From the NCBI GenBank assembly GCA_030427405.1, contig JAUHXK010000003.1, positions 248,001-312,000 on the forward strand: 64,000 nt of DNA, written 5' to 3'. The notes beneath the pieces were generated by a model. It saw nothing but the letters and a program-made list of their open reading frames with translations. It was not told the origin of the DNA and did not search any database. This DNA comes from Alphaproteobacteria bacterium (GTDB taxonomy: Bacteria; Pseudomonadota; Alphaproteobacteria; Rhodobacterales; Rhodobacteraceae). Both the position numbers and the translations under genes were made by a program. This document shows, piece by piece, positions 8,141 through 38,364 of the stretch (within the stretch, counting starts at the first letter, position 1; every line of letters begins with the position of its first letter).

Positions 8141-8304
8141 GGGCGCGTCCTTCGGCTGTCGGTTCTGCGCGCGGTTTAGCGGATTGCGGCGGGGAAGCAA
8201 ACTTATTAGCCCCGATCGCGGTCTTTTGGGGCGCAAAGGGCCGGGCGCGGCCTTGCCCTGCGGCAGCGCCCCGATTACAGCATGGCCAGTTTTCGGAGTG
8301 ACCC

Positions 8305-9048
8305 ATGCCCAGCGATCAGCCCCAACCGTCCTTTGTGCTCGTGCGCCCGCAGATGGGCGAAAATATCGGCGCCGCCGCGCGCGCGATGTGGAATTTCGGG
8401 CTTGACCGGATGCGGATCGTGGCCCCGCGCGACGGCTGGCCAAATCCCAAAGCGGTGGCAATGTCCAGCGGGGCGGGCCGGTTGCTTGACGAGGCGCAGC
8501 TTTATGACGACCTGGCAGGATCGCTGGCCGACAGCACCTTTGTCTTTGCCACCACCGCCCGGCAACGCGGGCTGACCAAACCGGTCTACAGCCCCGAACG
8601 CGCTATGCAATTGGCGGCCGAGAAGGTTGCGGCTGGTGAAAAGGTGGCGGTGCTGTTCGGACCCGAACGGGCGGGCCTTGAGAACGAAGATATCGCCAAG
8701 GCCAACGCCATCATCTCGGTTCCGGTGAACCCGGAATACGCCTCGCTGAACCTGGGGCAATGCGTGTTGCTGACCGCCTATGAGTGGATGCGCCAGACAG
8801 GCGACGTCGTGCACGAGGCGACGGACCTGGGCAAGGGCGACTGGGCCACGGGGATCGAGGTCGAAAAGCTGGTCGAACATTACGAGGATCGGCTGGAAGA
8901 GGCCGGATTCTTCTATCCGCCCGAAAAGGCCGACGGCATGAAAACCAACCTGCGCAACCTGTGGTCGCGGATGCGGATGACGCGGGCGGATGTGCAGATG
9001 TTGCATGGGATCATGCGGCAGATGGTCCGCTGGAAAGACAGGGGCTAA
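8305..9048 (+). CDS. trmJ: tRNA (cytidine/uridine-2'-O-)-methyltransferase, TrmJ type
   Basis: SPOUT-class RNA methyltransferase of 247 residues. The N-terminal segment FVLVRPQMGENIGAAARAM, the middle LFGPERAGLENEDI and the knot motif SLNLGQCVLLTAYEW are characteristic of TrmJ, which methylates the ribose of position 32 in several tRNAs. A C-terminal helical extension is present, as in E. coli TrmJ. ATG 8305 starts the conserved N-terminus. Confidence 0.88.
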   Translation: MPSDQPQPSFVLVRPQMGENIGAAARAMWNFGLDRMRIVAPRDGWPNPKAVAMSSGAGRLLDEAQLYDDLAGSLADSTFVFATTARQRGLTKPVYSPERAMQLAAEKVAAGEKVAVLFGPERAGLENEDIAKANAIISVPVNPEYASLNLGQCVLLTAYEWMRQTGDVVHEATDLGKGDWATGIEVEKLVEHYEDRLEEAGFFYPPEKADGMKTNLRNLWSRMRMTRADVQMLHGIMRQMVRWKDRG

Positions 9049-9107
9049 GGCTGGACCTGACCCCGCTTGGGGCCTAGCTTGCGACGAAATCAGGACATGA
9101 GGACAGC

Positions 9108-10253
9108 ATGAGCGGTAAGCGCAGCATCTTCCAAGAGGTCTCGGACACCGAGAAGCAACAGGCAGTGCAGCCCGGCATGATCGACCGCGGACGCGGCGGC
9201 GCGCGCAGTGCGATTCGCGCCTGGCTGATGATCCTGTTCGCACTGGTCGTCGTGATGATCGCCGTGGGCGGGCTTACCCGCCTGACCGATAGCGGCCTCT
9301 CGATCACCGAATGGCGCCCCGTCACCGGAGCCATCCCGCCGATGACCCAAGCCGATTGGCAGTCCGAATTCGACAAATACAAGGAAATCGACCAGTGGCG
9401 CATCCAGAATCAGTGGATGGAACTGGATGATTTCAAGTCGATCTACTGGTGGGAATGGGGCCATCGTCAGCTTGGCCGGGTCATTGGCCTGGTCTGGGCA
9501 ATCGGCTTTTTCGGCTTCCTTGCCGCCCGCAAGATACCTCCTGGCTGGGCAGGGAGACTTGCGATACCAGGCGCGCTTGGCGCGGCTCAGGGTGCTGTCG
9601 GCTGGTGGATGGTCGCCTCGGGCATGACACAGGGCGAAGGCATGACCGCTGTCGCCAGTTACCGCCTGGCCGTGCATTTGGGCCTGGCTTTCATCATCCT
9701 CGGCTTCCTGACCTGGTACATCCTGATGCTGGGGCGCGAGGAACGCGACCTGATGCAGGCCCGCCGCGCCAAAGAGGCAAAGCTGTTTTCGCTGTCCACT
9801 GGCCTGATGCATTTCGCCTTTTTGCAAATACTCATTGGCGCTCTCGTCGCGGGTATCGACGCCGGGCGATCTTATACCGACTGGCCGCTGATCGGCGGCC
9901 AGGTGCTGCCGCCCGATGCCACAATGCTCGAACCGATGTGGCGCAACTTCTTCGAAAGCCCCGGCCTGGTGCAGTTCATACACCGCTGTGCGGGGTATCT
10001 GCTGTTCATCTTTGGCGTCATCGTCTGGCGGCGCGGCGGCGCCAGCGCGCATCCACAAACCCGGTTTGCCTTCAACGCGGCCTTTGCGGCGCTTTCGCTG
10101 CAGGTGGTTGTCGGCATTCTGACCGTGGTCTACGGCGCCCCCTGGCAGATCGCGATTTTCCACCAGTTCATGGCGGTCATCGTCTGGACCCTCATCCTGC
10201 GGGCCCGTTTCCTGACGGCCTATCCCATCGCAACCTCTCTGCGCGGAGCGTAA
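9108..10253 (+). CDS. ctaA: Heme A synthase (COX15/CtaA)
   Basis: Membrane enzyme oxidising the C8 methyl of heme O to the formyl of heme A for aa3-type cytochrome oxidase. The 381-residue product has about eight hydrophobic helices, GGLTRLTDSGLSITEWRPV after helix 1, WWEWGHRQLGR, and HRCAGYLLF in the second half, giving the conserved heme-ligating His residues of type 2 (alphaproteobacterial and mitochondrial) COX15. Start ATG 9108. It stands four bases before the M32 peptidase gene, suggesting co-transcription. Confidence 0.93.
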   Translation: MSGKRSIFQEVSDTEKQQAVQPGMIDRGRGGARSAIRAWLMILFALVVVMIAVGGLTRLTDSGLSITEWRPVTGAIPPMTQADWQSEFDKYKEIDQWRIQNQWMELDDFKSIYWWEWGHRQLGRVIGLVWAIGFFGFLAARKIPPGWAGRLAIPGALGAAQGAVGWWMVASGMTQGEGMTAVASYRLAVHLGLAFIILGFLTWYILMLGREERDLMQARRAKEAKLFSLSTGLMHFAFLQILIGALVAGIDAGRSYTDWPLIGGQVLPPDATMLEPMWRNFFESPGLVQFIHRCAGYLLFIFGVIVWRRGGASAHPQTRFAFNAAFAALSLQVVVGILTVVYGAPWQIAIFHQFMAVIVWTLILRARFLTAYPIATSLRGA

Positions 10254-22673: not shown

Positions 22674-22721
22674 ATGGCTCCGGCGGTAGGGATCGAACCT
22701 ACGACCAATTGATTAACAGTC
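22674..22721 (-). repeat. attL: 3' fragment of tRNA-Asn
   Basis: 48 bases identical to 38084-38131, covering the 3' side of tRNA-Asn from the anticodon (GTT) through the CCA end. The 5' half of the tRNA is absent: after 22721 the sequence departs (TGGAAAATATAG instead of CAACTGCTCTAC). The left flank GGGGAAAA before the fragment resembles the 3' flank of the second intact tRNA-Asn at 38281-38289, consistent with this being the original chromosomal tRNA 3' end. Confidence 0.92.
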
Positions 22722-22861: not shown

Positions 22862-23986
22862 ATGGCCATCTTCAAGTTCACCGAGGCCCGCGTCAGGGCC
22901 CTGGAGCTAGGCTCCGGCATCCACAGAGACACGGAGGTCAAGGGCCTCATGTGCATCTGTCACAAGACGACCCGGACCTACGCCGTACAAGGCGACGTCC
23001 GCAGGGAGAAGCGCCACGTTCGCACCGTGAGGGTGAAGATCGGACGCACCGACCACATGAGGCTGGGTGACGCGCGGAACGAGGCGCGGCGTCTCATGGC
23101 GACCATCCAGTCGGGCGTGGACCCGACCGCAGGACCCGAGTCCACCGGAATCACGCTGGAACAGACCCTCGAAGAGCACCTCGCCGAACGTGACCTTTCC
23201 GAGGCCACCGTAAGGAACTACCGATACCACATGGAGAACTACCTCGGGCGGCTCCGGCGTCGGGCCGTGGCCGACATCACGCGACAGGACTGCCGGGAAC
23301 TCATGGACACGCTCGCGCGCAGACACGGCAAGACCACCGCTGGCTCTGTCATGCGCACGGTCCGGGCACTCGTGAACACAGCCCGCAGGCACGACGAGAC
23401 CATCGGTGCGAACCCCGTCGACGCCATCCGCGTGCCAGCGACGCCTAAGCGGGAGGTCGGAGAACTGGACGTGGCCGCGTTCTGGAACACGAGCGGGGCC
23501 ATGCCGCCGATGGTGCGCGACGTCCAACGGACTTTCCTGCTGACCGGGGCCAGACGAACATCCTTGCTCGGCGTTAGGCGAGAGGACTTCGATCCCGAGC
23601 GAGGCGTCCTGACCTTCACACACATGAAGACAGGTGGATCGTGGTCTTTCCCCACCGGGCGCTGGCTCACCGCCACGCTGGTCGCTCGCATGGAAGAGGA
23701 CGAGCCGCTCGCCTCGCCTTGGCTATGGCCATCGCCGAGCGCTTCGTCAGGCCACCTGATCGAGCCCCGACGAGCAGGCGTGCCATCGCCCCACGCGCTC
23801 CGCCACCACTGCCGCACGATGATGATCGCGGCGGGCGTCCCTTACGCCGAAGGCGCACTTCTCCTCGGGCAGCGTCTACCCGGCGCGAGCGGCGGCTATG
23901 TGCACCAGACGCATCTGGTCGAGGCGCTGAGGCCGCACGCACAGGCCCTGGAGGACCTCGTCCTCGACAGGGCGGGCGTTGCGTGA
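22862..23986 (+). CDS. int: Tyrosine-type site-specific integrase
   Basis: Catalyses integration and excision at the tRNA-Asn site. The 374-residue protein has an N-terminal arm-binding region with a DUF4102-like flavour, a SAM-like core-binding domain (about 97-195), and a catalytic domain with Arg231 (LLTGARRTSLL), Lys256 (MKTGGSW), His311-x2-Arg314 (HALRHH) and the Tyr346 nucleophile (GGYVHQ). The position usually occupied by a second His (LGH) reads LGQ (Gln337), a tolerated but less common variant. The start 141 bases inside attL is the standard position for such elements. Confidence 0.92.
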   Translation: MAIFKFTEARVRALELGSGIHRDTEVKGLMCICHKTTRTYAVQGDVRREKRHVRTVRVKIGRTDHMRLGDARNEARRLMATIQSGVDPTAGPESTGITLEQTLEEHLAERDLSEATVRNYRYHMENYLGRLRRRAVADITRQDCRELMDTLARRHGKTTAGSVMRTVRALVNTARRHDETIGANPVDAIRVPATPKREVGELDVAAFWNTSGAMPPMVRDVQRTFLLTGARRTSLLGVRREDFDPERGVLTFTHMKTGGSWSFPTGRWLTATLVARMEEDEPLASPWLWPSPSASSGHLIEPRRAGVPSPHALRHHCRTMMIAAGVPYAEGALLLGQRLPGASGGYVHQTHLVEALRPHAQALEDLVLDRAGVA

Positions 23987-25205: not shown

Positions 25206-27446
25206 ATGGCCGGGCAATCCAAGGACAAGATGACGGGCCTGCGATCGTTCGACGCCGCCTGCCGTGAGGCGGGGATAGAGCCCGCTTACGTGTTCCTCAG
25301 GGAAAAGCGGGCGTTCAAGGAGGGCTGGCAGAACCTGCGCCCGACGCTCGCCGAGGTGCTGGAGCACCTGGGGCGATCTCCGAGGAACTCGGTCGGCGTG
25401 CAGCCCGCATCCCTGGGCTGCGTCGTGCTGGACTGCGACGAAGGCGACGGGCCCGAGGTCGCGGTCGAGTGGGCCGGGGATGCACACGCCGTCACCACCC
25501 CATCGTCATCCGGCAGCGCCCGTAAGGGCCACGTCTGGGTCCGGTGCGACGCCGCAGACGCCGTGTGCAACTGGAAGTTCCGGGTCGAGGACCCGATTGA
25601 GGGCGAGGCGGAGGGCGAGCTCAGGACACACGGTGGGCAGGTTCGATTGAACGCGCAGTCGGTTAGGCTGCTCGCCCGCGCCGTCGGGGAGGGCAGGATG
25701 CGAGACGGCCCCCGTCTGTCCCCGGTGGCCTTCGCTGGCATCAGGACGAGCGGGGGCGCTGCGGACGCATCCGGCGTGGTCCTGGACTGGGACGACGGCG
25801 CCGACGTGGAATTCGACAAACTGCCCGAGGGCCTGCGTGATCGCATCGTGGAGCCGGTCGGTTCGGGCGAGCGGTCGGAGGCCGTCGCGTCCCTGGTCTG
25901 GCAGCTCCTAGCCCGCGGCCTTTCGGCTGCCTCGGCGCTCTCGGTCCTCGTCGAGCACTGCGGCTTCGCCGTCGAGAAGTACGGCGACAGGCTGGAAGCC
26001 CAGGTCGAGAAGATCGCCCGGGACTACCTCGCCACCCGTAAGGCCGGGATAGCCCACGACTTCGACGACGTGGTAGAGGACGCCGACCTGCCGGAGGGTG
26101 CGCAGCCCGAAGGTGGCGGGAACCCCATGACCCTCGTCGTGAAGGAGATGAACGAGCGGTTCTGTGCCGTCCTCGACGGTGGGCAGTTTCAGGTCTTCAT
26201 GGAGGAGCCCGACCCGATCTTCGAGGGTCGCACCGCCTGGACCAGGATGAGCCGCGAGGCGTTCCGGCACTTCTTCGAGGACGAGACCATCGCCCAGGTC
26301 GGCGATAAGAAGCGGATCAGCAAGGCCGACCTCTGGCTGTCGAGCCCGCACCGTCGCAAGTACCCCGGTATCGTGATGGACCCGCAGGGCCTGGAACACA
26401 ACGCGGGCAAGCTGAACCTCTGGAAGGGGTGGGCCGTGGAGCCCGCGCCGGGCAACTGGTCGATGATGCGCGAGCTGATCGGGGAGGTCCTATGCGACGG
26501 CGACGCGGCCTCTGAGGATTACGTGCTCCGCTGGATCGCTTACATGCTCCAGAGGCCCTGGGAGACGCCCGAGGTCGCCATCGCGTTCCGCGGCGAGGAG
26601 GGCACCGGCAAGGGCACCCTGGGCAGGGCGCTGATGCGCATCGCCGGCCAGCACGGCCTGACGGTCTCCCACCGATCTCAGTTCGCGGGGCGCTTCAACT
26701 CGCACCTCCGCAACTGCGTGTTCCTGTTCGCCGACGAGGCGGTCTGGCCCGGCGACAAGGAGGGTGAGGGCGTGCTCAAGCAGCTCGTGACCGAGCCGAT
26801 CCTGTCCTACGAGGCCAAGGGGCGCGACATCACCCAGGGCAGGAACATGGTACACATGATGCTGGCCTCGAACGAGGAGTGGATCGTGCCCGCTGGACCA
26901 GAGGCGAGGCGCTTCTTCGTCTCTGACGTCTCGGACAGGCGGCGCCAGGACCACGACTACTTCTGCAGGCTCGGTCGGCAGATGGATGGGGGCGGCCTCG
27001 CGGGCATGGCCCACGACCTGCTGGCGATGGACCTGCGCGGCTGGCGGCCCTCGATGGAGATACCGCAGACACGGGCGCTTGCCGACCAGAAGCTGAGGAG
27101 CATGAAGCCCGCCGCGCGCTTCTGGTTCGAGCTGCTGGGTTCGGGCGAGCTGCCGATCACCTTCGACGCCGAGGGCAACGAGATCGACTGGCGCGCTGGC
27201 GCGGTGGTGTTCGGCCCACAGGACAAGGACGCGACCGTCGAGGCGTTTGACCGCTTCCTCCGCCGCAACCAGCTCCGCAGCGAGAGGGCCACGCACCGGG
27301 CCCTGGTCAACGAGGGGAGGCGGCTCGTGGGTCTGACGACCGGCAAGCGGGAAGGCGGCGCAGAACGCACCTGGAAACTGCCCGCCCTCGACGACGCCAG
27401 GGCCACGTTCGAGGCACGCTCAGGCGCCTCCGAGCTGTTCGACTGA
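25206..27446 (+). CDS. Primase-polymerase/helicase replication protein (NrS-1-like)
   Basis: Fusion of an archaeo-eukaryotic-type primase-polymerase and an SF3-like helicase, 746 residues. In the N-terminal domain the metal-binding Asp76-x-Asp78 (VVLDCDEGDG), Lys-x-His109 (RKGHVWVR) and Arg140-Thr-His-Gly-Gly form the three PrimPol motifs. The C-terminal domain has Walker A GEEGTGKGT (463-471), Walker B CVFLFADEA (504-512) and sensor MLASNEEW (near 556), matching the helicase domain of NrS-1 phage polymerase (DUF5906). It should initiate and unwind at the iteron region immediately downstream, giving the element autonomous replication after excision. Confidence 0.85.
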   Translation: MAGQSKDKMTGLRSFDAACREAGIEPAYVFLREKRAFKEGWQNLRPTLAEVLEHLGRSPRNSVGVQPASLGCVVLDCDEGDGPEVAVEWAGDAHAVTTPSSSGSARKGHVWVRCDAADAVCNWKFRVEDPIEGEAEGELRTHGGQVRLNAQSVRLLARAVGEGRMRDGPRLSPVAFAGIRTSGGAADASGVVLDWDDGADVEFDKLPEGLRDRIVEPVGSGERSEAVASLVWQLLARGLSAASALSVLVEHCGFAVEKYGDRLEAQVEKIARDYLATRKAGIAHDFDDVVEDADLPEGAQPEGGGNPMTLVVKEMNERFCAVLDGGQFQVFMEEPDPIFEGRTAWTRMSREAFRHFFEDETIAQVGDKKRISKADLWLSSPHRRKYPGIVMDPQGLEHNAGKLNLWKGWAVEPAPGNWSMMRELIGEVLCDGDAASEDYVLRWIAYMLQRPWETPEVAIAFRGEEGTGKGTLGRALMRIAGQHGLTVSHRSQFAGRFNSHLRNCVFLFADEAVWPGDKEGEGVLKQLVTEPILSYEAKGRDITQGRNMVHMMLASNEEWIVPAGPEARRFFVSDVSDRRRQDHDYFCRLGRQMDGGGLAGMAHDLLAMDLRGWRPSMEIPQTRALADQKLRSMKPAARFWFELLGSGELPITFDAEGNEIDWRAGAVVFGPQDKDATVEAFDRFLRRNQLRSERATHRALVNEGRRLVGLTTGKREGGAERTWKLPALDDARATFEARSGASELFD

Positions 27447-28130: not shown

Positions 28131-28778
28131 ATGAGCATCATGCGGATGAACAGGATCAGGCCCGCACCCGATCCGCACAGGCGGAGCCAGTTGGCCCCGG
28201 TCGTGGCCCAGGTGTACGGCGAGAAGGGCGACGAGTTCCTCGGCTACCTGAGGCAGTTCGGGCACGTCACCTACGCCGCCAACATGACCGGCCTGACCCG
28301 GCGCACATTCTACGACCGGCGGGCCAAGAACCCCGACTTCGCCGAGGCGTGGGACGATGCCGTGACCGCCTTCGAGGAGGAGCTCACGCAGCGCGTGGTC
28401 CAGACGGCCCTCGAGATGGGCACCGGCCGGTGGGTCCCCGTAATCGACCCGAAGACGGGCGAACCGCAGCTGGACGAAGACTTCGAGGTGGTCCACCGCT
28501 TCGAGACCTCCCACGTGGACCCGCGGGTGCTGACCAAGCTGCTGGCCCTGCGCATGAGCTCCGTGGACGGCCCCGCCCAGACCAACGTCCAGATCAACAA
28601 CCAGACGAACGTCCACAACGAGCTGCCGACCCGGAAGCCCAAGCTCGTCGGCGGCACCACCGGGTCCATACGGAGACCCTTGGGCGACCCCGAGGCTCCG
28701 GGTGCACGTCCGGGCGTAGAGGACGCCGAGGTGATCCAGGGGACGACGCACGAGCCCGAGGGAGGCGACGATGCCTGA
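28131..28778 (+). CDS. Terminase small subunit-like HTH protein, 215 aa
   Basis: Residues about 30-90 (FGHVTYAANMTGLTRRTFYDRR, then KNPDFAEAWDDAVTAFEEEL) have the helix-turn-helix plus acidic helix found in many phage small terminase subunits and homologues (phBC6A51 type). The C-terminal third is Pro/Gly-rich and probably disordered. A satellite that carries only a small terminase could redirect a helper phage's packaging to its own DNA. No large terminase follows, and the same HTH occurs in proteins of other function, so the packaging role is inference. ATG 28131 opens the conserved region. Confidence 0.6.
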   Translation: MSIMRMNRIRPAPDPHRRSQLAPVVAQVYGEKGDEFLGYLRQFGHVTYAANMTGLTRRTFYDRRAKNPDFAEAWDDAVTAFEEELTQRVVQTALEMGTGRWVPVIDPKTGEPQLDEDFEVVHRFETSHVDPRVLTKLLALRMSSVDGPAQTNVQINNQTNVHNELPTRKPKLVGGTTGSIRRPLGDPEAPGARPGVEDAEVIQGTTHEPEGGDDA

Positions 28779-31092: not shown

Positions 31093-31353
31093 ATGGCCGA
31101 CCCACATACGAAGAAGCTCCGTGTACCCACGCGCTACGTCGAGATAGCCGCAGTGGGCGCGACGGTCGCCTCCGACACCGACTGTCCCGAGGAGACACGC
31201 GGCCTGCACGTCGGTACCGCAGGAAACATCACGGTGGTCATCGACGGCCGGCCCCTGACCGTGGCCGTCGCGGGCGGCGTGCCGTTCCTCGGCGAGTTCG
31301 AGCAGGTCCTTGCCTCAGGCTCCACAGTCCAAGGTGTCTGGGCTCTGGTCTGA
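31093..31353 (+). CDS. Spike base-like protein (RCAP_Rcc01079-type), 86 aa
   Basis: The sequence resembles small spike-base proteins related to the RcGTA head-spike component Rcc01079: MADPHTKKLRVPTRYVEI, then TRGLHVGTAGNITVVIDG, then EFEQVLASGSTVQGVWALV, the last matching the family ending in which a short strand closes a beta-rich fold. It starts one base after the preceding stop. If correct, this is a particle-exposed attachment protein carried by an element that lacks a capsid gene. Assignment is by pattern recall, hence moderate confidence. Confidence 0.55.
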   Translation: MADPHTKKLRVPTRYVEIAAVGATVASDTDCPEETRGLHVGTAGNITVVIDGRPLTVAVAGGVPFLGEFEQVLASGSTVQGVWALV

Positions 31354-32356: not shown

Positions 32357-34033
32357 CTACTCCTCTTCACCAGCCTCTGCATCTGAAGCGGGTTTTTGAA
32401 TGAGTTCTAGAGCAACAGGGATGCCGAACTCATCCAATCGCTTTACGGCAGCCTGCAGGCTAACCTTAGAGAAAAATGGTAGACCTAGGGTTCCGTCTTT
32501 GTACGGTTTCCGCATGATACCATACACTACCTTGAAATCTGTGCGGACTGGTTTTTGAGCTGCCATTGGCAGAAGATCTTCAAACGCATTGCCAGATGCT
32601 TTCTTGTCGCTTTCACTTTTTACGATTCTCCGTAATTTCACTTTAAAGTCATGATCGGAAACGAACGCCTCGGCGCTCACTACCCCCTGAGACCAAAGGT
32701 GGCTAATTGACCCCGATGAATGACCATCCTTGAGATGGATGAACTCGCGCGATGTCGAAAAGAAATCGCAAGGCTCAAGGTTTCCGTACTTAACGCCCTT
32801 CGGGTTGATCTTTTTTTGGTCCAGCTTCAGGAGATCGTCTCGGGTATTTACCAGTTCTTCGATTAGGTCTCTTTCATTGAGGCACGTGGTTGGTCCTACG
32901 ATGTTGATCTTCTCCAAGGCATCGTATGCCTCATCTACTTCGGCCTTGAAGTCCTGATCGACACAATACCACCCCCCCGCAAACAGAACGTAGTGTTTTT
33001 CGCTGCCATCTTCCCCAAGCGAGGTTTCGCAAATGAAGCAATCATAAACCTTCCATTTTTGATCGAACTTCTCTTCGTTGTCCGTCTTGGCTGAGATGTA
33101 GTGTTTTTCTTTGAGTTCGATTACCTCGCCGTCAAAGTCACACCGGTTTAACTCCGCAACGTAGTCTTCAATTGAGAGGCTTTCAAAGTCGGAGCCGTTA
33201 CTTCCGAAGCCATTGTAGTGCAGTTGATTCCCTTCTGTGTAATTGACAATTTCTGGAGGCGACATATGGAGGTCAGCGTTCTCTCCCGCGCGCAATTTTC
33301 CCAACGCTTCAAATAGTTTTCCATCTAGTTGGGCGATCACGTCTTTCTCAGAGACCATCTGCATACGGTCAACCCAGGAGAAATCTGCCTTGTAGTCCTC
33401 TCGCACGTACATTGCCAAAATTCTGTCGCACAACGCCTGAACTTCGTCGGGCTTGTCCTTTGCGATCACTTTGAGAGCATCCTTACCCGCCACAAATTGC
33501 GCGAAGTCCTTGCTTTTAGGTGTGCCTGCCGCCACCCTTGCAAGGTCTCGATACATATTGACACCGAATGCTTGCAAGTCGCTATCCTTGCTGGTTTGAA
33601 CCCGTTTTTGAACAGTCACAGCATCTGGTGTGGCCGTGTCCAAACTTCGTAGTTGCTCGCGTGAAACTGCATTTAGCGTGACTTTCAGGCCGAATTGCCT
33701 AACGAACGCGTCATCATTTAATGCGATGTGCACATGGCCGAAACAGATCGCGAGTATTCTTCCCCCACTCGGCACAAACAGCACGGCACCAGCACCACTG
33801 GCAAACAGGTCGCCAGGAAGATCAGGGCTTCCAGTTCGAATAAAATCTGTCCAGCCTGGCGGGTTATTGTAAATTTGACCAACGTAGAGGGTCGCGCCGT
33901 CAATGTCTTCCCAAGGCCTTTGTTCAAGTTCGCGGGGCTCTCCCGGTGCAAAGCTTGGTCCAAATGCGGTCTCTGCGGTTCGTCCCGGACGGAGAAGCCG
34001 CATGTTAAATTGGTAGTGTTTTGCTCTTGGCAC
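32357..34033 (-). CDS. DUF6119 / TIGR04141 sporadically distributed protein
   Basis: 558 residues, uncharacterised family of scattered distribution often met in mobile or defence-rich loci. Family signatures seen in order: RLLRPGRTAETAF at the N-terminus; AICFGHVHIALNDDAFVRQF; FGLKVTLNAVSREQLRSLDT; GKDALKVIAKDKPDEVQALC; YVREDYKADFSWVDRMQ; KWKVYDCFICE; AGGWYCVDQDF. Start is GTG 34033: GGAGG lies six bases upstream of it and family-like sequence begins directly after, whereas a longer frame to 34192 reads through unlike sequence. G+C is far below the element core (26 of 60 in a sample at 33061), marking imported cargo. Confidence 0.8.
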   Translation of the reverse strand: MPRAKHYQFNMRLLRPGRTAETAFGPSFAPGEPRELEQRPWEDIDGATLYVGQIYNNPPGWTDFIRTGSPDLPGDLFASGAGAVLFVPSGGRILAICFGHVHIALNDDAFVRQFGLKVTLNAVSREQLRSLDTATPDAVTVQKRVQTSKDSDLQAFGVNMYRDLARVAAGTPKSKDFAQFVAGKDALKVIAKDKPDEVQALCDRILAMYVREDYKADFSWVDRMQMVSEKDVIAQLDGKLFEALGKLRAGENADLHMSPPEIVNYTEGNQLHYNGFGSNGSDFESLSIEDYVAELNRCDFDGEVIELKEKHYISAKTDNEEKFDQKWKVYDCFICETSLGEDGSEKHYVLFAGGWYCVDQDFKAEVDEAYDALEKINIVGPTTCLNERDLIEELVNTRDDLLKLDQKKINPKGVKYGNLEPCDFFSTSREFIHLKDGHSSGSISHLWSQGVVSAEAFVSDHDFKVKLRRIVKSESDKKASGNAFEDLLPMAAQKPVRTDFKVVYGIMRKPYKDGTLGLPFFSKVSLQAAVKRLDEFGIPVALELIQKPASDAEAGEEE

Positions 34034-34206
34034 TCGGAGCCTCCAAATGCGCAGATGGTACCTAGTAGCGCAATGATTACAATGCGGGATTGAGCGGTTT
34101 CTGCCTGAGAACCAGAATTTCCATCTCGCCAAATCATTTCCGGGGGCTCGCGGGGTCCCAGCTTCCCGACAGCATAGGATGACCAAATCCAAAAAGGAGA
34201 CCTGCT

Positions 34207-34689
34207 ATGACCACCTATGTTGCAATTGCCCCTGACGGATCGGAACATACCCGCAAGACTGATCGGACCTATTCTCATGCTGTTCTTCTGGAAAGCAAAG
34301 ACGGTTGGACAGTAGTGGGCTTCTGCGGTCGTCTTGATCTCGCCCAAAGGAAGCAAGGCGAGCATCCGAGCAGTATCTTTGTCGAGGTCAAAGAACTCGG
34401 TACGACCGAGGCCGACGAGACCAAGGCCGAGGCTGCCGAGGACGCCGAGCAAGCCACCCAAGAGGCTGAGGATGCTGCCGAGACCGATCGGCCAAAGCTG
34501 ACGATCAGCCGCTTTATTGAAAAGCTGCTTATGGACGAGTATTTGGCCTACGCAGCGATTGTGGATCAGGTCGTGGCAGAGTTCCCAGACGCCAAGACCA
34601 CAACGCGCTCAGTCGCATCTGTTGCGGCTGTTATGCGAAAGAACGGTGTTGACGTCCCGATACGCCGGAAGTTCAATTCGCCAGACTGA
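34207..34689 (+). CDS. Acidic two-domain protein of unknown function, 160 aa
   Basis: Divergent from the DUF6119 gene with 173 bases between them. ATG 34207 follows AAGGAGA. The N-terminal 45 residues (VAIAPDGSEHTRKTDRTYSHAVL) resemble a short motif seen in small phage proteins; a Glu/Ala-rich linker spans about 60-97; the C-terminal 60 residues (LTISRFIEKLLMDE; YAAIVDQVVAEFPDAKTTTRSVASVAAVMRK in two parts of a helical domain) look like a small winged-helix fold. A DNA-binding regulator is a guess. Its stop is 29 bases from the end of the vsr pseudogene. Confidence 0.6.
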   Translation: MTTYVAIAPDGSEHTRKTDRTYSHAVLLESKDGWTVVGFCGRLDLAQRKQGEHPSSIFVEVKELGTTEADETKAEAAEDAEQATQEAEDAAETDRPKLTISRFIEKLLMDEYLAYAAIVDQVVAEFPDAKTTTRSVASVAAVMRKNGVDVPIRRKFNSPD

Positions 34690-34718: not shown

Positions 34719-35144
34719 TTATTTTGAGGTTGGGGATCTCTTGCACAAGAAGGCCAGGAGGCGATCCGCGAGGGTCGCCTAATCCTTTGTTTCACACTGC
34801 CACACCTCCAGCACCCGCTAGCGCATGGCTTTCAGCGCTCGCCGCGCTTATCCGTCCCGTTCGACATTGCGGGCAAGCTTGGGCTCCCAGTATCCCCGGT
34901 TGGAAGAGGACACTCGTCCGTCTCTACAGTCGTGCTGGTGCCAAAAGCAGGCGTGGACGAATATCACTGCACGCCTCGGTCCGAAAACGAGGTCTGGCTT
35001 GCCGGGCAGTTCCTTGCTGTGCTGGCTGTACCGGTAGCCCAGACCATGGACCTAGCGGCGTACGACCATTTCGGGCTTCATGCCCTTACTCTTGATGCGC
35101 CGCATGTTCTCGCTGCGACTCTCGGGAGTGATCTCGTCGGCCAC
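34719..35144 (-). pseudogene. vsr: vsr: very-short-patch-repair endonuclease with four in-frame stops
   Basis: Read on the minus strand from GTG 35144, one frame runs 142 codons to TAA at 34721-34719 and encodes Vsr: TPESRSENMRRIKSKGMKPE, PGKPDLVFGPRR, VIFVHACFWHQHDC, GYWEPKLARNVERD. Numbering coincides with E. coli Vsr: Glu25, Asp51, His64, His69 (catalytic) and Cys66, His71, Cys73, Cys117 (zinc) are all present. Stop codons interrupt at codons 31 (TAG), 99 (TAA), 109 (TAG, at the conserved Trp of GWRVL) and 122 (TAG). No frameshift is seen. The start overlaps the endonuclease stop (TAGTG). Vsr nicks T:G mismatches from deaminated m5C, fitting the adjacent m5C methyltransferase. Confidence 0.88.
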
Positions 35145-36043
35145 TAGACCGGCCAGCCTGCCTGGCGAGCGGCATTTAATTCAACCGCAGTTTTGGGCGT
35201 GTAAGAAACGAAATCGCCCTCTGGAAGTCCCAAAGTGCGCATCAGAGGGGCATCGTAGGCACTCGAAAGAACTAGGATGCCTTCGGCAAGCAGAGTATTC
35301 CGGGTGCCTCGCGGTCCATCAGCTCTAATCCTTCTGGTCGGGTCCTTCTGCTTTGCAACATCTGCGATTGTCTCTCGCATGATTGGAACCCCTTGCACGG
35401 TGCGAAACAGGCGTTTCATTCTCTCGTTGCCTGAGCTTCCTGCCATGATGAAATCTGCTTGCACATCGCTCAGGCTACGCCAAAAATTTGGAGGGTACGG
35501 ACGCTCCCTGTAGAGCCAAAGAATGTGTTCCCAAGCGTCAGCAAGCAGACTGGTTTTCTTGTCTTGGTTTTTGCCTCCGCGCAGATACTGCGGTCTCGCT
35601 ATCACTAGGCCGAGGTAGCACAAGGAAGTCTTCTCATCTGCCGCACTCAGTATCAGCGGGTGCCCGACCGCCTCTCCAGGGATCATCCACCCCGTTCCCA
35701 TTGTGTGCTTTATGTCCACTTCATGACCGCAAAGGCGAGTGTCCAATTTTTGACCACGCGGGAGTTCGAGTTCGGCGCGCAGCATCATTTCTACCAGCAT
35801 ACCGATATAGGTGCGCTCGACTTTCTCAAGCTGGGCGTAGCTGCGTCGGCCGGTAAGCGGCGTCCGAATTACTCCGTCAATCTCTACTCGGTAGAGCGGC
35901 GGCAAAATGTCTTGCAAAGGACCGGCCCGGTCTTTTGGTTTCCGGGTCATTGCCCGCCGATTCAGGTCGGCGGCGATGCTCGACAACACTTCATAGTCTG
36001 GATGGCTAGGTGCGACTACACTGGGAGGAATCTTTTTCTTCAA
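35144..36043 (-). CDS. NaeI-type type IIE restriction endonuclease
   Basis: 299 residues aligned by eye to NaeI (317 aa): QLEKVERTYIGMLVEMML matches NaeI QLHKTEKTHMGTLVEINL, and the NaeI active-site residues Glu70, Asp86, Asp95 and Lys97 correspond at a constant offset of 15 to Glu85, Asp101, Asp110 and Lys112 (EVDIKHTMG). Further matches include GWMIPGEAVGH and RMKRLFRTVQGVPI. NaeI cuts GCCGGC; specificity here is inferred, not shown. The start is TTG 36043 with no clear ribosome-binding site, so the true N-terminus is uncertain. It lies 56 bases after the methyltransferase and its stop overlaps the vsr start. Confidence 0.87.
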   Translation of the reverse strand: MKKKIPPSVVAPSHPDYEVLSSIAADLNRRAMTRKPKDRAGPLQDILPPLYRVEIDGVIRTPLTGRRSYAQLEKVERTYIGMLVEMMLRAELELPRGQKLDTRLCGHEVDIKHTMGTGWMIPGEAVGHPLILSAADEKTSLCYLGLVIARPQYLRGGKNQDKKTSLLADAWEHILWLYRERPYPPNFWRSLSDVQADFIMAGSSGNERMKRLFRTVQGVPIMRETIADVAKQKDPTRRIRADGPRGTRNTLLAEGILVLSSAYDAPLMRTLGLPEGDFVSYTPKTAVELNAARQAGWPV

Positions 36044-36099: not shown

Positions 36100-37056
36100 C
36101 TAGACGGCTCTCAATCGAGCCCGTGTCTGAATAGCTGCGGATACTCGTTCTGCAACTGCTTGAGCTACTGGCGGCGGGAACGCATTTCCTACCTGCCGGT
36201 AGGCGTTGGTCTTTCTGCCTGTGAAATGCCAGCTATCCGGGAAGCCCTGAATGCGAGCGACCATAGAAACCGTGAGTCGAGGCATCCCCACGAAGTCTGG
36301 ATCAGGAGCTTCTTCTGCAATCGTCTTGCCATTCACACCGAGCGTTTCCCACGCGCGTTTTGCCCTTGTTGGTCCGAGGTCTGGGCCGCCATGTTTCTTT
36401 GAACCTCCGACAATGGTCGGCGCGATTTCATCTGCTCGGTCCCGCCAAGCTTTGGCTCCTGGCCAGCCTCGTGAAGCCATCATATCATAAAGCGTTTCAC
36501 CCACCGTCGGAGGGTTCGTGTGCTGCTCCTCGGGCCATTCAAAGCCATCAGCATGTTCCATCTTGATAGCCACGATCACCACGCGGGGACGAAGTTGAGG
36601 GACGCCAAAGTGCGAGGAATTGAGGAGTCGCCAGTCCGTCTTGTAGCCCAGCTTCGAGAGTTGCTTTTTCAAACCCTCCCTGTAGTCGTGAAACACTGCG
36701 TCTAAGAAACCGCGAACGTTCTCTATCATCACGGCCTTAGGGCGGACCGCATCAACAATCTCAAGCGCATCCGGAAACAGATTTCGCTCGTCTTTTGCGC
36801 CTAGCTGTTTTCCGGCGACCGAAAACGGCGGGCAGGGAAGACCTCCGGCAACTAGATCTACTCCGGCAAAATCAGAGGCACGTTCCTTGAAGAGCCGGAG
36901 ATCGTCTTCGATAACCTTCCATTCAGGGCGATTGTGTCTCAGCGTGTTGCAGCAATGGGCGTCGATTTCGACGAGTGCCTCATGTTCGAAGCCAGCCTGT
37001 TCCAGCCCGAGGGCCTGTCCGCCGGCTCCTGCGCAAAGCTCAACCGAGGTCAACAT
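36100..37056 (-). CDS. DNA (cytosine-5-)-methyltransferase of the restriction system
   Basis: 318 residues with the ordered m5C methyltransferase motifs: I (ELCAGAGGQALGLEQAGF, SAM binding), IV (GGLPCPPFS, nucleophile Cys75), VI (IENVRGF), VIII (QLRPRVV), IX/X (RQVGNAFPPPVA). The target-recognition region between VIII and IX is about 90 residues. It protects host DNA at the sites cut by the NaeI-type enzyme encoded next. ATG 37056 has GGAG upstream. It is the first gene of an M-R-V minus-strand operon, the safe order on entry into a new host. Confidence 0.93.
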   Translation of the reverse strand: MLTSVELCAGAGGQALGLEQAGFEHEALVEIDAHCCNTLRHNRPEWKVIEDDLRLFKERASDFAGVDLVAGGLPCPPFSVAGKQLGAKDERNLFPDALEIVDAVRPKAVMIENVRGFLDAVFHDYREGLKKQLSKLGYKTDWRLLNSSHFGVPQLRPRVVIVAIKMEHADGFEWPEEQHTNPPTVGETLYDMMASRGWPGAKAWRDRADEIAPTIVGGSKKHGGPDLGPTRAKRAWETLGVNGKTIAEEAPDPDFVGMPRLTVSMVARIQGFPDSWHFTGRKTNAYRQVGNAFPPPVAQAVAERVSAAIQTRARLRAV

Positions 37057-37182
37057 CTTGATGTGCTCCTTCCTGCCGTCCCATCACCTTGTGTAGGCTG
37101 TGCCATCGAACTTGTCAGCCCGATTCCTATGTTCTATTATTGTTCCATACAGGGGGTTAACGGTTCTAGGAAGGGGGTAATC

Positions 37183-37929
37183 GTGGGCAAGGCGAAAGCG
37201 AGTCCGAAGGGTCACAGCGCTGGAATGGCAAAGTTCACGAACTTCGGAGACGTCCGACAGACACAATTCTGCGTACACTGCGGGGGGCCAACCGAGACGA
37301 AGGACCACGCCCCGTCGAAGGTCTTCCTCGACCAGCCATACCCACTGACCAAGCCGACGCTTCCAAGCTGCGGGGGCTGCAACAACAGTTTCTCGGACGA
37401 CGAGGAGTATGTCGCCGCACTCATCGAGTGCGTCGTGCATGGCACAACCGACCCCGACTGCCTGAGGCGCGAGAAGGTGGCCAAGGCCCTTCGCAGGAAC
37501 ACGGCCCTTCGCGGGCGGATCGAGCGTTCGCGGCGCGAGGCCGAGGCGCTGGGTGGAGGGCGATTACTGACGTGGACGCCCGAGGAGGAGCGCGTGCGCC
37601 GGGTGATCCTGAAGCTCGCACGATGCCATGCCGCCTACGAGCTCAACGAGCCGCAGCTTGAGGACCCGGACCATCTCCTGGTCGTTCCGCTGGTGAGCCT
37701 GACCAACGACCAACGCGAGCACTTCGAGACGCCACCAGACACCGGTGTGTGGCCGGAGGTCGGCAGCCGGGCGATGCTGAGGCTAGTGGAGGGCGGGGCC
37801 GGTTTCGCTGGCGGCTGGTGCACTGTCCAGGAAGGCCGCTACAGGTACATGGCGGTGGGCGCCGGGTCTGCGATGGTGAGGGGCGTCATAAGCGAATACC
37901 TAGCTTACGAGGTCATCTGGGGCCCGTGA
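37183..37929 (+). CDS. HNH-type nuclease-like protein, 248 aa
   Basis: A zinc-ribbon HNH pattern lies in the N-terminal third: FCVHCGGPTETKDHAPSKVF, then LPSCGGCNNSFSDDEEYV, giving CxxC, the DH pair and CxxCN with a following acid. The remainder is a helical and beta region with no known domain. The start is GTG 37183 behind AGGGGG; an extension to 36934 would overlap the methyltransferase 5' end antisense and is unlike protein of this family. Its composition returns to the high GC of the element core. It could belong to the defence block or be a homing/accessory nuclease; 155 bases follow to the tRNA. Confidence 0.65.
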   Translation: MGKAKASPKGHSAGMAKFTNFGDVRQTQFCVHCGGPTETKDHAPSKVFLDQPYPLTKPTLPSCGGCNNSFSDDEEYVAALIECVVHGTTDPDCLRREKVAKALRRNTALRGRIERSRREAEALGGGRLLTWTPEEERVRRVILKLARCHAAYELNEPQLEDPDHLLVVPLVSLTNDQREHFETPPDTGVWPEVGSRAMLRLVEGGAGFAGGWCTVQEGRYRYMAVGAGSAMVRGVISEYLAYEVIWGP

Positions 37930-38083: not shown

Positions 38084-38131
38084 ATGGCTCCGGCGGTAGG
38101 GATCGAACCTACGACCAATTGATTAACAGTC
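38084..38131 (-). repeat. attR: 48-bp direct repeat within intact tRNA-Asn
   Basis: Identical to 22674-22721. Here the repeat continues into the tRNA 5' half, so the element supplies the 3' part and restores a complete tRNA. The base before the repeat core changes from AAA (left) to TTT (right), defining the repeat limit. Confidence 0.92.
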
Positions 38132-38159
38132 AACTGCTCTACCGCTGAGCTACGCCGGA
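38085..38159 (-). tRNA. tRNA-Asn(GTT), reconstituted at the element's right end
   Basis: 75 bases including encoded CCA. Acceptor TCCGGCG pairs with CGCCGGA; the D arm is GCTCAGCGGTAGAGC, the anticodon loop CTGTTAA (GTT), and the T arm GTAGGTTCGATCCCTAC. The 3' 47 bases come from the attachment repeat of the element. Confidence 0.96.
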
Positions 38160-38289: not shown

Positions 38290-38364
38290 TGGCTCCGGCG
38301 GTAGGGATCGAACCTACGACCAATTGATTAACAGTCAACTGCTCTACCGCTGAGCTACGCCGGA
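38290..38364 (-). tRNA. tRNA-Asn(GTT), second copy
   Basis: Sequence identical over all 75 bases to the copy at 38085-38159, 130 bases away and on the same strand. Its 3' flank (complement of TTGGGGAAAAT) resembles the flank of the attL fragment, indicating that the two tRNA genes arose as a tandem duplication and that integration used the downstream copy. Confidence 0.97.

Follow-up and report, generated by a model that had tools for sequence, protein, structure and literature searches.

The window, i.e., the whole 64,000-nucleotide stretch of DNA analysed here, harbours a mobile element whose cargo region comprises a gene of the DUF6119/TIGR04141 family, a divergently oriented 160-aa gene, the short intergenic region between the two and a restriction–modification (R-M) system of the NaeI type (Table 1). 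Both open reading frames, their divergent arrangement and the family assignment of the larger protein agree with the preliminary description of this locus.

Table 1. Genes and other features of the element, in window coordinates
Feature	Position	Strand	Match or remark
Left copy of the 48-bp attachment repeat (tRNA-Asn fragment)	22674..22721	none	
Tyrosine integrase of the element	22862..23986	plus	
Primase with DUF5906 domain	25206..27446	plus	
Terminase small subunit (TerS)	28131..28778	plus	phrog_4044, 1.4e-9
DUF6119/TIGR04141 gene, 558 aa, GTG start	32357..34033	minus	Pfam and NCBIfam profiles
Divergent intergenic region, 173 nt	34034..34206	none	between the DUF6119 gene and the 160-aa gene
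160-aa gene, Glu/Ala-rich middle, last 60 residues conserved	34207..34689	plus	divergent from the DUF6119 gene
NaeI-family restriction endonuclease, neighbouring cargo	35144..36043	minus	PF09126, 1.4e-47
C5 cytosine DNA methylase, neighbouring cargo	36100..37056	minus	PF00145, 2e-69
Right copy of the 48-bp attachment repeat	38084..38131	none	inside tRNA-Asn 38085-38159

The DUF6119 gene and its satellite

The 558-aa protein is a complete member of DUF6119/TIGR04141, the curated cut-off being exceeded over the entire profile: PF19614 matches it with an E-value of 1.5e-138 and 463.2 bits (cut-off 27; profile positions 1–524 of 524), and TIGR04141 with 8.4e-130 and 433.7 bits (cut-off 35). The mechanically called ORF of this gene extends upstream to 34192 (611 aa); the GTG at 34033 was taken as the start, since the closest relative, that of locus L038 (96% identity), has an ATG at the equivalent position. 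The gene is under purifying selection, as is its divergent neighbour: in comparisons of the window with loci L038 and L019, dN/dS amounts to 0.018/0.291 and 0.037/0.886 for the DUF6119 gene and to 0.090/0.374 and 0.084/0.474 for the 160-aa gene, dS being saturated in comparisons with L020 and L022.

The family has been described only as sporadically distributed, and searches of an open-access library brought up no paper devoted to it. A profile search detected DUF6119 in three of the 198 genomes of the window's family (its own genome counted), in keeping with the earlier view of an uncharacterised, patchily occurring protein. Neither the DUF6119 protein nor the 160-aa protein matched any family of PADLOC-DB 2.0.0 up to E 1, and a Pfam scan of the 558-aa protein up to the same value returned none of the profiles SduA_C (PF14082), PF08878 (HamA) and PF04381 (RdgC).

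The low GC content and the mobile element noted earlier are real. GC content is 0.506–0.508 at 32–34 kb vs 0.624–0.702 at 23–32 kb, and 48-bp direct repeats, 15.4 kb apart, flank an element encoding an integrase, a primase and a terminase small subunit. The element ORFs scanned (all except the smallest) gave no assignment to families of capsid, portal or large terminase proteins; a single tail-fibre match, at 31093–31353, is weak (phrog_12296, E 0.0033). Hence, the element looks like a phage satellite, with PICI-like gene content at the attachment site. A second tRNA-Asn gene lies at 38290–38364, and 47 bp of the attachment repeat recur in it at 38290–38336. The restriction system placed next to the DUF6119 gene by the preliminary description is present; still, the NaeI endonuclease and C5 methylase genes adjoin the 160-aa gene and not DUF6119. 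Beside the methylase, a 317-aa ORF (36976–37929) displays paired CxxC motifs, HNH-like by eye, and has no Pfam match.

Relatives of this satellite occur in other genomes. A genome scan that used FIHLKDG[HE] and an FGL pattern as seeds, of which the best 80 of 102 matches were kept, yielded 78 DUF6119 loci. The integrase, TerS and further backbone genes of the window satellite recur in three of these (L019, L038 and L022), and a fourth (L021, on a 9.6-kb contig) carries three of the backbone genes. The DUF6119 copies of L019 and L038, both accompanied by the 160-aa gene, are 94 and 96% identical to that of the window, respectively, whereas in L021 and L022 (81%) DUF6119 adjoins a different C5 methylase and another gene, whose L021 copy hits a type II endonuclease model. 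In L020 (85%), no satellite genes were seen in the stretch examined. In a tree built by a quick method with SH-aLRT support only, the five satellite copies and that of L020 form one supported group.

Where the window has its NaeI system, L019 (6672–9304) and L038 (6686–9318) hold a CBASS-like set near the 160-aa gene. This set includes a 2TM effector, in which the scan of L038 showed a Cap15 domain, and, from the scan of L019, a DncV-like cyclase and an E2-like gene; each of its genes has a counterpart in the other locus. Since the neighbours differ among the satellites (NaeI system, CBASS-like set or other R-M genes), DUF6119 stays in place while its neighbours change. L019, L038, L103, L104 and L106 have tRNA-Asn genes.

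The divergent 160-aa gene

The preliminary description proposed that the 160-aa protein is a dedicated regulator or partner of the DUF6119 protein; the two would then form a pair of effector and regulator or antidote. Such a pair would fit the divergent arrangement and the conserved intergenic region common to the window, L019 and L038: in an alignment of 182 columns, which takes in 9 nt of the 160-aa gene, 166 columns are identical in L038 and 137 in L019. The half of this region adjoining the 160-aa gene (the leader) is also kept in L103, where DUF6119 is lacking, and the 173-bp region contains no perfect inverted repeats with arms of 6–12 nt and loops below 20 nt.

The distribution of the two genes speaks against such a pair. 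The 160-aa gene lies beside DUF6119 in only two of the 95 other DUF6119 loci (L001 and L003–L096, some of them short), namely L019 and L038, which belong to the same satellite lineage. In the reverse direction, the 160-aa gene is present in six of the 292 genomes of the order, own genome counted, and the DUF6119 profile, which did match the window's own genome, gave zero matches in the other five. Because the pairing was seen in no more than three related satellites, and five further genomes have the 160-aa gene with no DUF6119 found, the dedicated pair was rejected; the partner reading is not supported, and we regard it as highly improbable.

The 160-aa gene is more readily understood as belonging to the satellite cargo region. 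In three of the five other genomes it is adjoined by a C5 methylase gene, and L105, L106 and L107 have relatives of satellite backbone genes (integrase, TerS or others) in its vicinity. No relative of it was matched among plasmids, and pattern-seeded scans of viral contigs revealed no relative of either gene. The protein has no match in Pfam or NCBIfam; its PHROG matches are weak and mostly to families of unknown function, the best (4.2e-5) covering residues 113–153. The winged-helix end once suggested for it is left unproven by these weak PHROG matches. The protein may have a regulatory role, its last 60 residues being the conserved part.

Defence context and the hsdS–hsdR position

The neighbourhood of the family is rich in defence genes. 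A set of 119 neighbours, drawn from the loci of 76 relatives, matched 478 PADLOC families vs 32 for 119 control genes (E up to 1e-5), the count being of families, not proteins, with many overlapping models, and the control (119 of 221 genes from 15 fixed stretches of four genomes of the window's family) being phylogenetically narrower than the neighbours, which span many phyla. The neighbours were taken as up to two genes on each side, as defined by a mechanical gene caller, of 130–1400 aa and one per cluster; type I R-M clusters and L038 were left out of the set, and the rows L063 and L074 (lacking gene calls) as well as L002 and L097 (the window itself) were dropped before counting. The families matched by the neighbours include PtuA, AriA, Old, RmrA and PDC-S05, and those matched by the control genes include a DpdF-like helicase, PsyrT and mads models. 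Counts per Pfam family among the neighbours are low (three members at most), so no single recurring partner emerges. In L023, a gene for a GHKL-ATPase protein (8237–9994) ends 6 nt before DUF6119; it matches SduA_C with 23.5 bits, below the cut-off of 27.

Copies of DUF6119 were also found in 23 plasmid records and in one phage record, in the latter near an integrase gene. On plasmids, they reside within type I R-M operons (L004, L006, L007 and L176) or adjoin such operons (L014 and L015); the copy of L005 adjoins a NACHT gene, and that of L011 has TIR, deaminase and AAA genes nearby. The copies of L009 and L016 have no obvious defence neighbour, and the stretches of L012, L013, L017 and L018 carry no annotation. 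Overall, the association of the family with defence is strong, as judged from the PADLOC counts and the type I R-M operons, and gene context supports a defence reading; the preliminary description made this reading depend on an enrichment in defence islands, and the neighbours proved far richer in defence models than the control genes. Its suggestion that restriction genes and the 160-aa gene should recur beside DUF6119 was borne out for the former, as one of several interchangeable contexts; there is no regular pairing with the latter.

The type I operons offer a closer view of this association. In 10 of the 76 genome loci (from the best 80 of 102), DUF6119 is flanked directly by an hsdS-type gene on one side and by hsdR on the other. 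With the HsdR of L006 as the query, 12 plasmid records matched at no less than 60% identity, and 10 of them (74.8–100%) were examined. The position between hsdS and hsdR is occupied by DUF6119 in four of them (L004, L006, L007 and L176), by Shedu together with a HAD gene in two (L171 and L173) and by Shedu together with DUF3800 in one (L172); the remaining three contain HAD alone (L170), DUF3800 alone (L175) or a Ser/Thr kinase with a small gene (L174). The SduA_C domain was confirmed by scan in all three Shedu genes. Among nine full-length HsdR matches in genomes (at least 75% identity), the same position holds DUF6119 in three (L140, L141 and L148), a relative of the L174 kinase in three, DUF3800 in two and DUF4917/PDC-S21 in one; the HsdR of L140 is 100% identical to that of L006, so the two may come from the same organism. 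Within one type I R-M lineage (L170–L175 and L177–L182), the position holds alternative genes. In the tree, the copy of L176 is far from the other copies in this position, and the label of the position requires at least four changes. Given this alternation in near-identical operons, DUF6119 behaves as an exchangeable module that substitutes for an established anti-phage nuclease.

Several precedents bear on how such a gene may relate to its host operon. TgvAB, embedded in a type I operon, acts without HsdR cleavage (PMC11411939), DarTG2 is located in a type I system under RptR (PMC12255303), and PrrC is silenced by the linked type I enzyme (PMC2610378). The TgvAB precedent favours independent action of DUF6119. 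The PrrC precedent favours a rival explanation, in which the protein is an accessory or guard of R-M enzymes, silenced by them and released upon their block by a phage, as PrrC is by EcoprrI. The latter would also account for the coupled hsdS–hsdR position in the genome loci and in four of the plasmid operons, as well as for the R-M genes near DUF6119 in the window, L021 and L022. However, DUF6119 stands alone in 45 of the 76 genome loci (from the best 80 of 102), with no co-directional gene of at least 80 aa within 60 nt, the sister type I operons manage without it, and the R-M genes of the window lie outside its operon; a guard role is therefore considered unlikely. That DUF6119 is an obligate part of the type I enzyme was rejected, because sister type I operons lack it.

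Predicted folds and comparison with known systems

The full-length AlphaFold model, built from 54 sequences, reached a pLDDT of 86.4 and a pTM of 0.81, and the C-terminal domain modelled alone reached 95.2 and 0.91, respectively. In these models, residues ~362–552 are PD-(D/E)XK-like by fold, and residues ~4–213, within the N-terminal half (about 1–215), are RdgC-like. For the C-terminal domain, HamA ranks first both in Foldseek (probability 0.94, E 5.8e-3) and in VIA (Z 7.8, rmsd 5.1, 163 aligned residues). Further VIA matches include two CdiA-CT toxins (Z 6.3 and 6.0), SduA (Z 5.7, rmsd 4.5, 137 aligned) and the restriction enzymes BstEII and EcoT38I (both 5.3); the CdiA-CT toxins and both these enzymes have the PD-(D/E)XK fold. 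A small GTPase (Z 5.4) and a decarboxylase (5.3) score among these nuclease matches. The order of elements in the model fits the alpha-beta-beta-beta-alpha-beta core, and the best matches are of this fold, with Z below 8. For the N-terminal half, RdgC ranks first in the PDB by Foldseek (probability 0.94, E 4.1e-3), and VIA aligns residues 4–213 with it at Z 6.6 (rmsd 5.3, 188 aligned). In BFVD, four phage RdgC models match with probabilities of 0.47–0.87 and are outranked by an exonuclease of phage PTXU04 (probability 1.00, E 1.3e-4; aligned range not given).

Each of these matches is weak when taken singly: none reaches E 0.001 in the PDB or Z 8, and Z-scores of this size may reflect a common arrangement of elements. 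Comparison of the DUF6119 domain alignments with those of HamA, SduA and RdgC by hhalign returned nothing (probabilities below 1%); the targets were shallow, with 2 to 18 rows (18 for RdgC), and in the SduA set at least one row (L137) resembles a wrong reading frame, so kinship with these proteins is still allowed by this result. By sequence, the PDB gave no match to the DUF6119 protein with E up to 1.

Several residues of the C-terminal domain are constant. In 94 aligned sequences, which span many phyla, E387, D405, E420, D423, H433, S440, S444, H445 and Q449 are invariant and K435 is conserved in 93, the conservation of H433 and K435, like that of residues ~114–121, being partly by construction in L019–L096, since the genome scan was pattern-seeded. 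The rows from other searches (L001 and L003–L018) agree with this pattern. In the model, D423 lies just ahead of the second strand and H433-x-K435 in the third, so that the motif reads HxK, not (D/E)xK. The C-terminal domain is likely a nuclease, a moderately supported prediction, because the structure libraries agree and the invariant residues sit at the expected places. The domain might instead be inactive and the protein a DNA-binding adaptor, as the histidine in place of the usual acidic motif residue and the weak fold scores could suggest; since a dead domain would have no need of polar residues that are invariant at the expected places in all 94 sequences, drawn from many phyla, this appears quite improbable.

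Taken together, these data lead us to regard it as somewhat probable that DUF6119 encodes a DNA nuclease module that is complete in itself, acts against phages and travels as a single gene. The N-terminal half (about residues 1–215) would hold DNA by an RdgC-like clamp, and the C-terminal domain (about 362–552) would cleave it, the active site being PD-(D/E)XK-like with histidine in the (D/E) position. By analogy with Shedu, the target may be DNA displaying features of phage injection or replication, e.g., ends or unusual intermediates. The gene seems to be mobile as one unit, being satellite cargo near a NaeI-type R-M system here and a part of type I R-M operons in its relatives.

The RdgC-like fold signal can also be seen from another angle, together with the occurrence in 23 plasmid records, in one phage record near an integrase gene and in five satellite copies: the protein could serve mobile elements as an RdgC-like DNA-binding modulator of recombination, transfer or element competition, and not cellular phage defence. 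Such a role is hard to reconcile with the interchange with Shedu inside R-M operons, with neighbours much richer in defence models than the control and with the fused nuclease-like domain bearing invariant polar residues, and so it appears improbable.

The defence nuclease reading, based on the predicted fold, makes the function directly testable, as it names residues and an operon position that alternates with Shedu. The RdgC-like clamp joined to a nuclease, if true, would tie the fold of a recombination protein to immunity, and the hsdS–hsdR position is a place for finding further defence genes. More broadly, and only tentatively, DUF6119/TIGR04141 may constitute a widespread, hitherto unrecognised family of single-protein anti-phage nucleases combining an RdgC-type clamp with a nuclease: a second solution of the Shedu kind, which alternates with Shedu and further defence genes in a plug-in slot of type I R-M operons and also travels as cargo of tRNA-Asn satellites. 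This generalisation is possible rather than probable.

Among the known systems, satellites of the PICI kind are close to the window element, whose attachment repeats, 15.4 kb apart, enclose an integrase, a primase and TerS along with defence cargo; the window element was assigned to no named satellite family. TgvAB, DarTG2 and PrrC likewise reside inside hsd operons, as do some relatives of DUF6119, but they are other proteins, and DUF6119 of the window lies outside any type I operon. RdgC, a protein that forms a DNA-encircling ring, is similar in the predicted fold of residues 4–213, whereas the DUF6119 protein has neither a PF04381 match nor profile similarity to it; RdgC is not known to have a nuclease domain. 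HamA of Hachiman is the top fold match of the C-terminal domain, yet DUF6119 has no PF08878 match and its N-terminal half is different; no HamB-like helicase gene lies beside DUF6119 in the window, where it is adjoined by the 160-aa gene and by small genes of the satellite.

The closest parallel in layout is Shedu. As reviewed in PMC12904381, the Shedu nuclease EcSduA forms a tetramer; DNA ends are bound by its N-terminal clamp, and its PD-(D/E)XK domain places nicks at a fixed distance. Like SduA, DUF6119 is a single protein with an N-terminal part and a C-terminal domain of the predicted PD-(D/E)XK type, encoded, in some relatives, in the same place between hsdS and hsdR; unlike SduA, it has no SduA_C match or profile similarity, its N-terminal half is RdgC-like, and its motif is HxK instead of (D/E)xK. 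Hence, we read it as a protein of Shedu-like layout and not as a member of Shedu.
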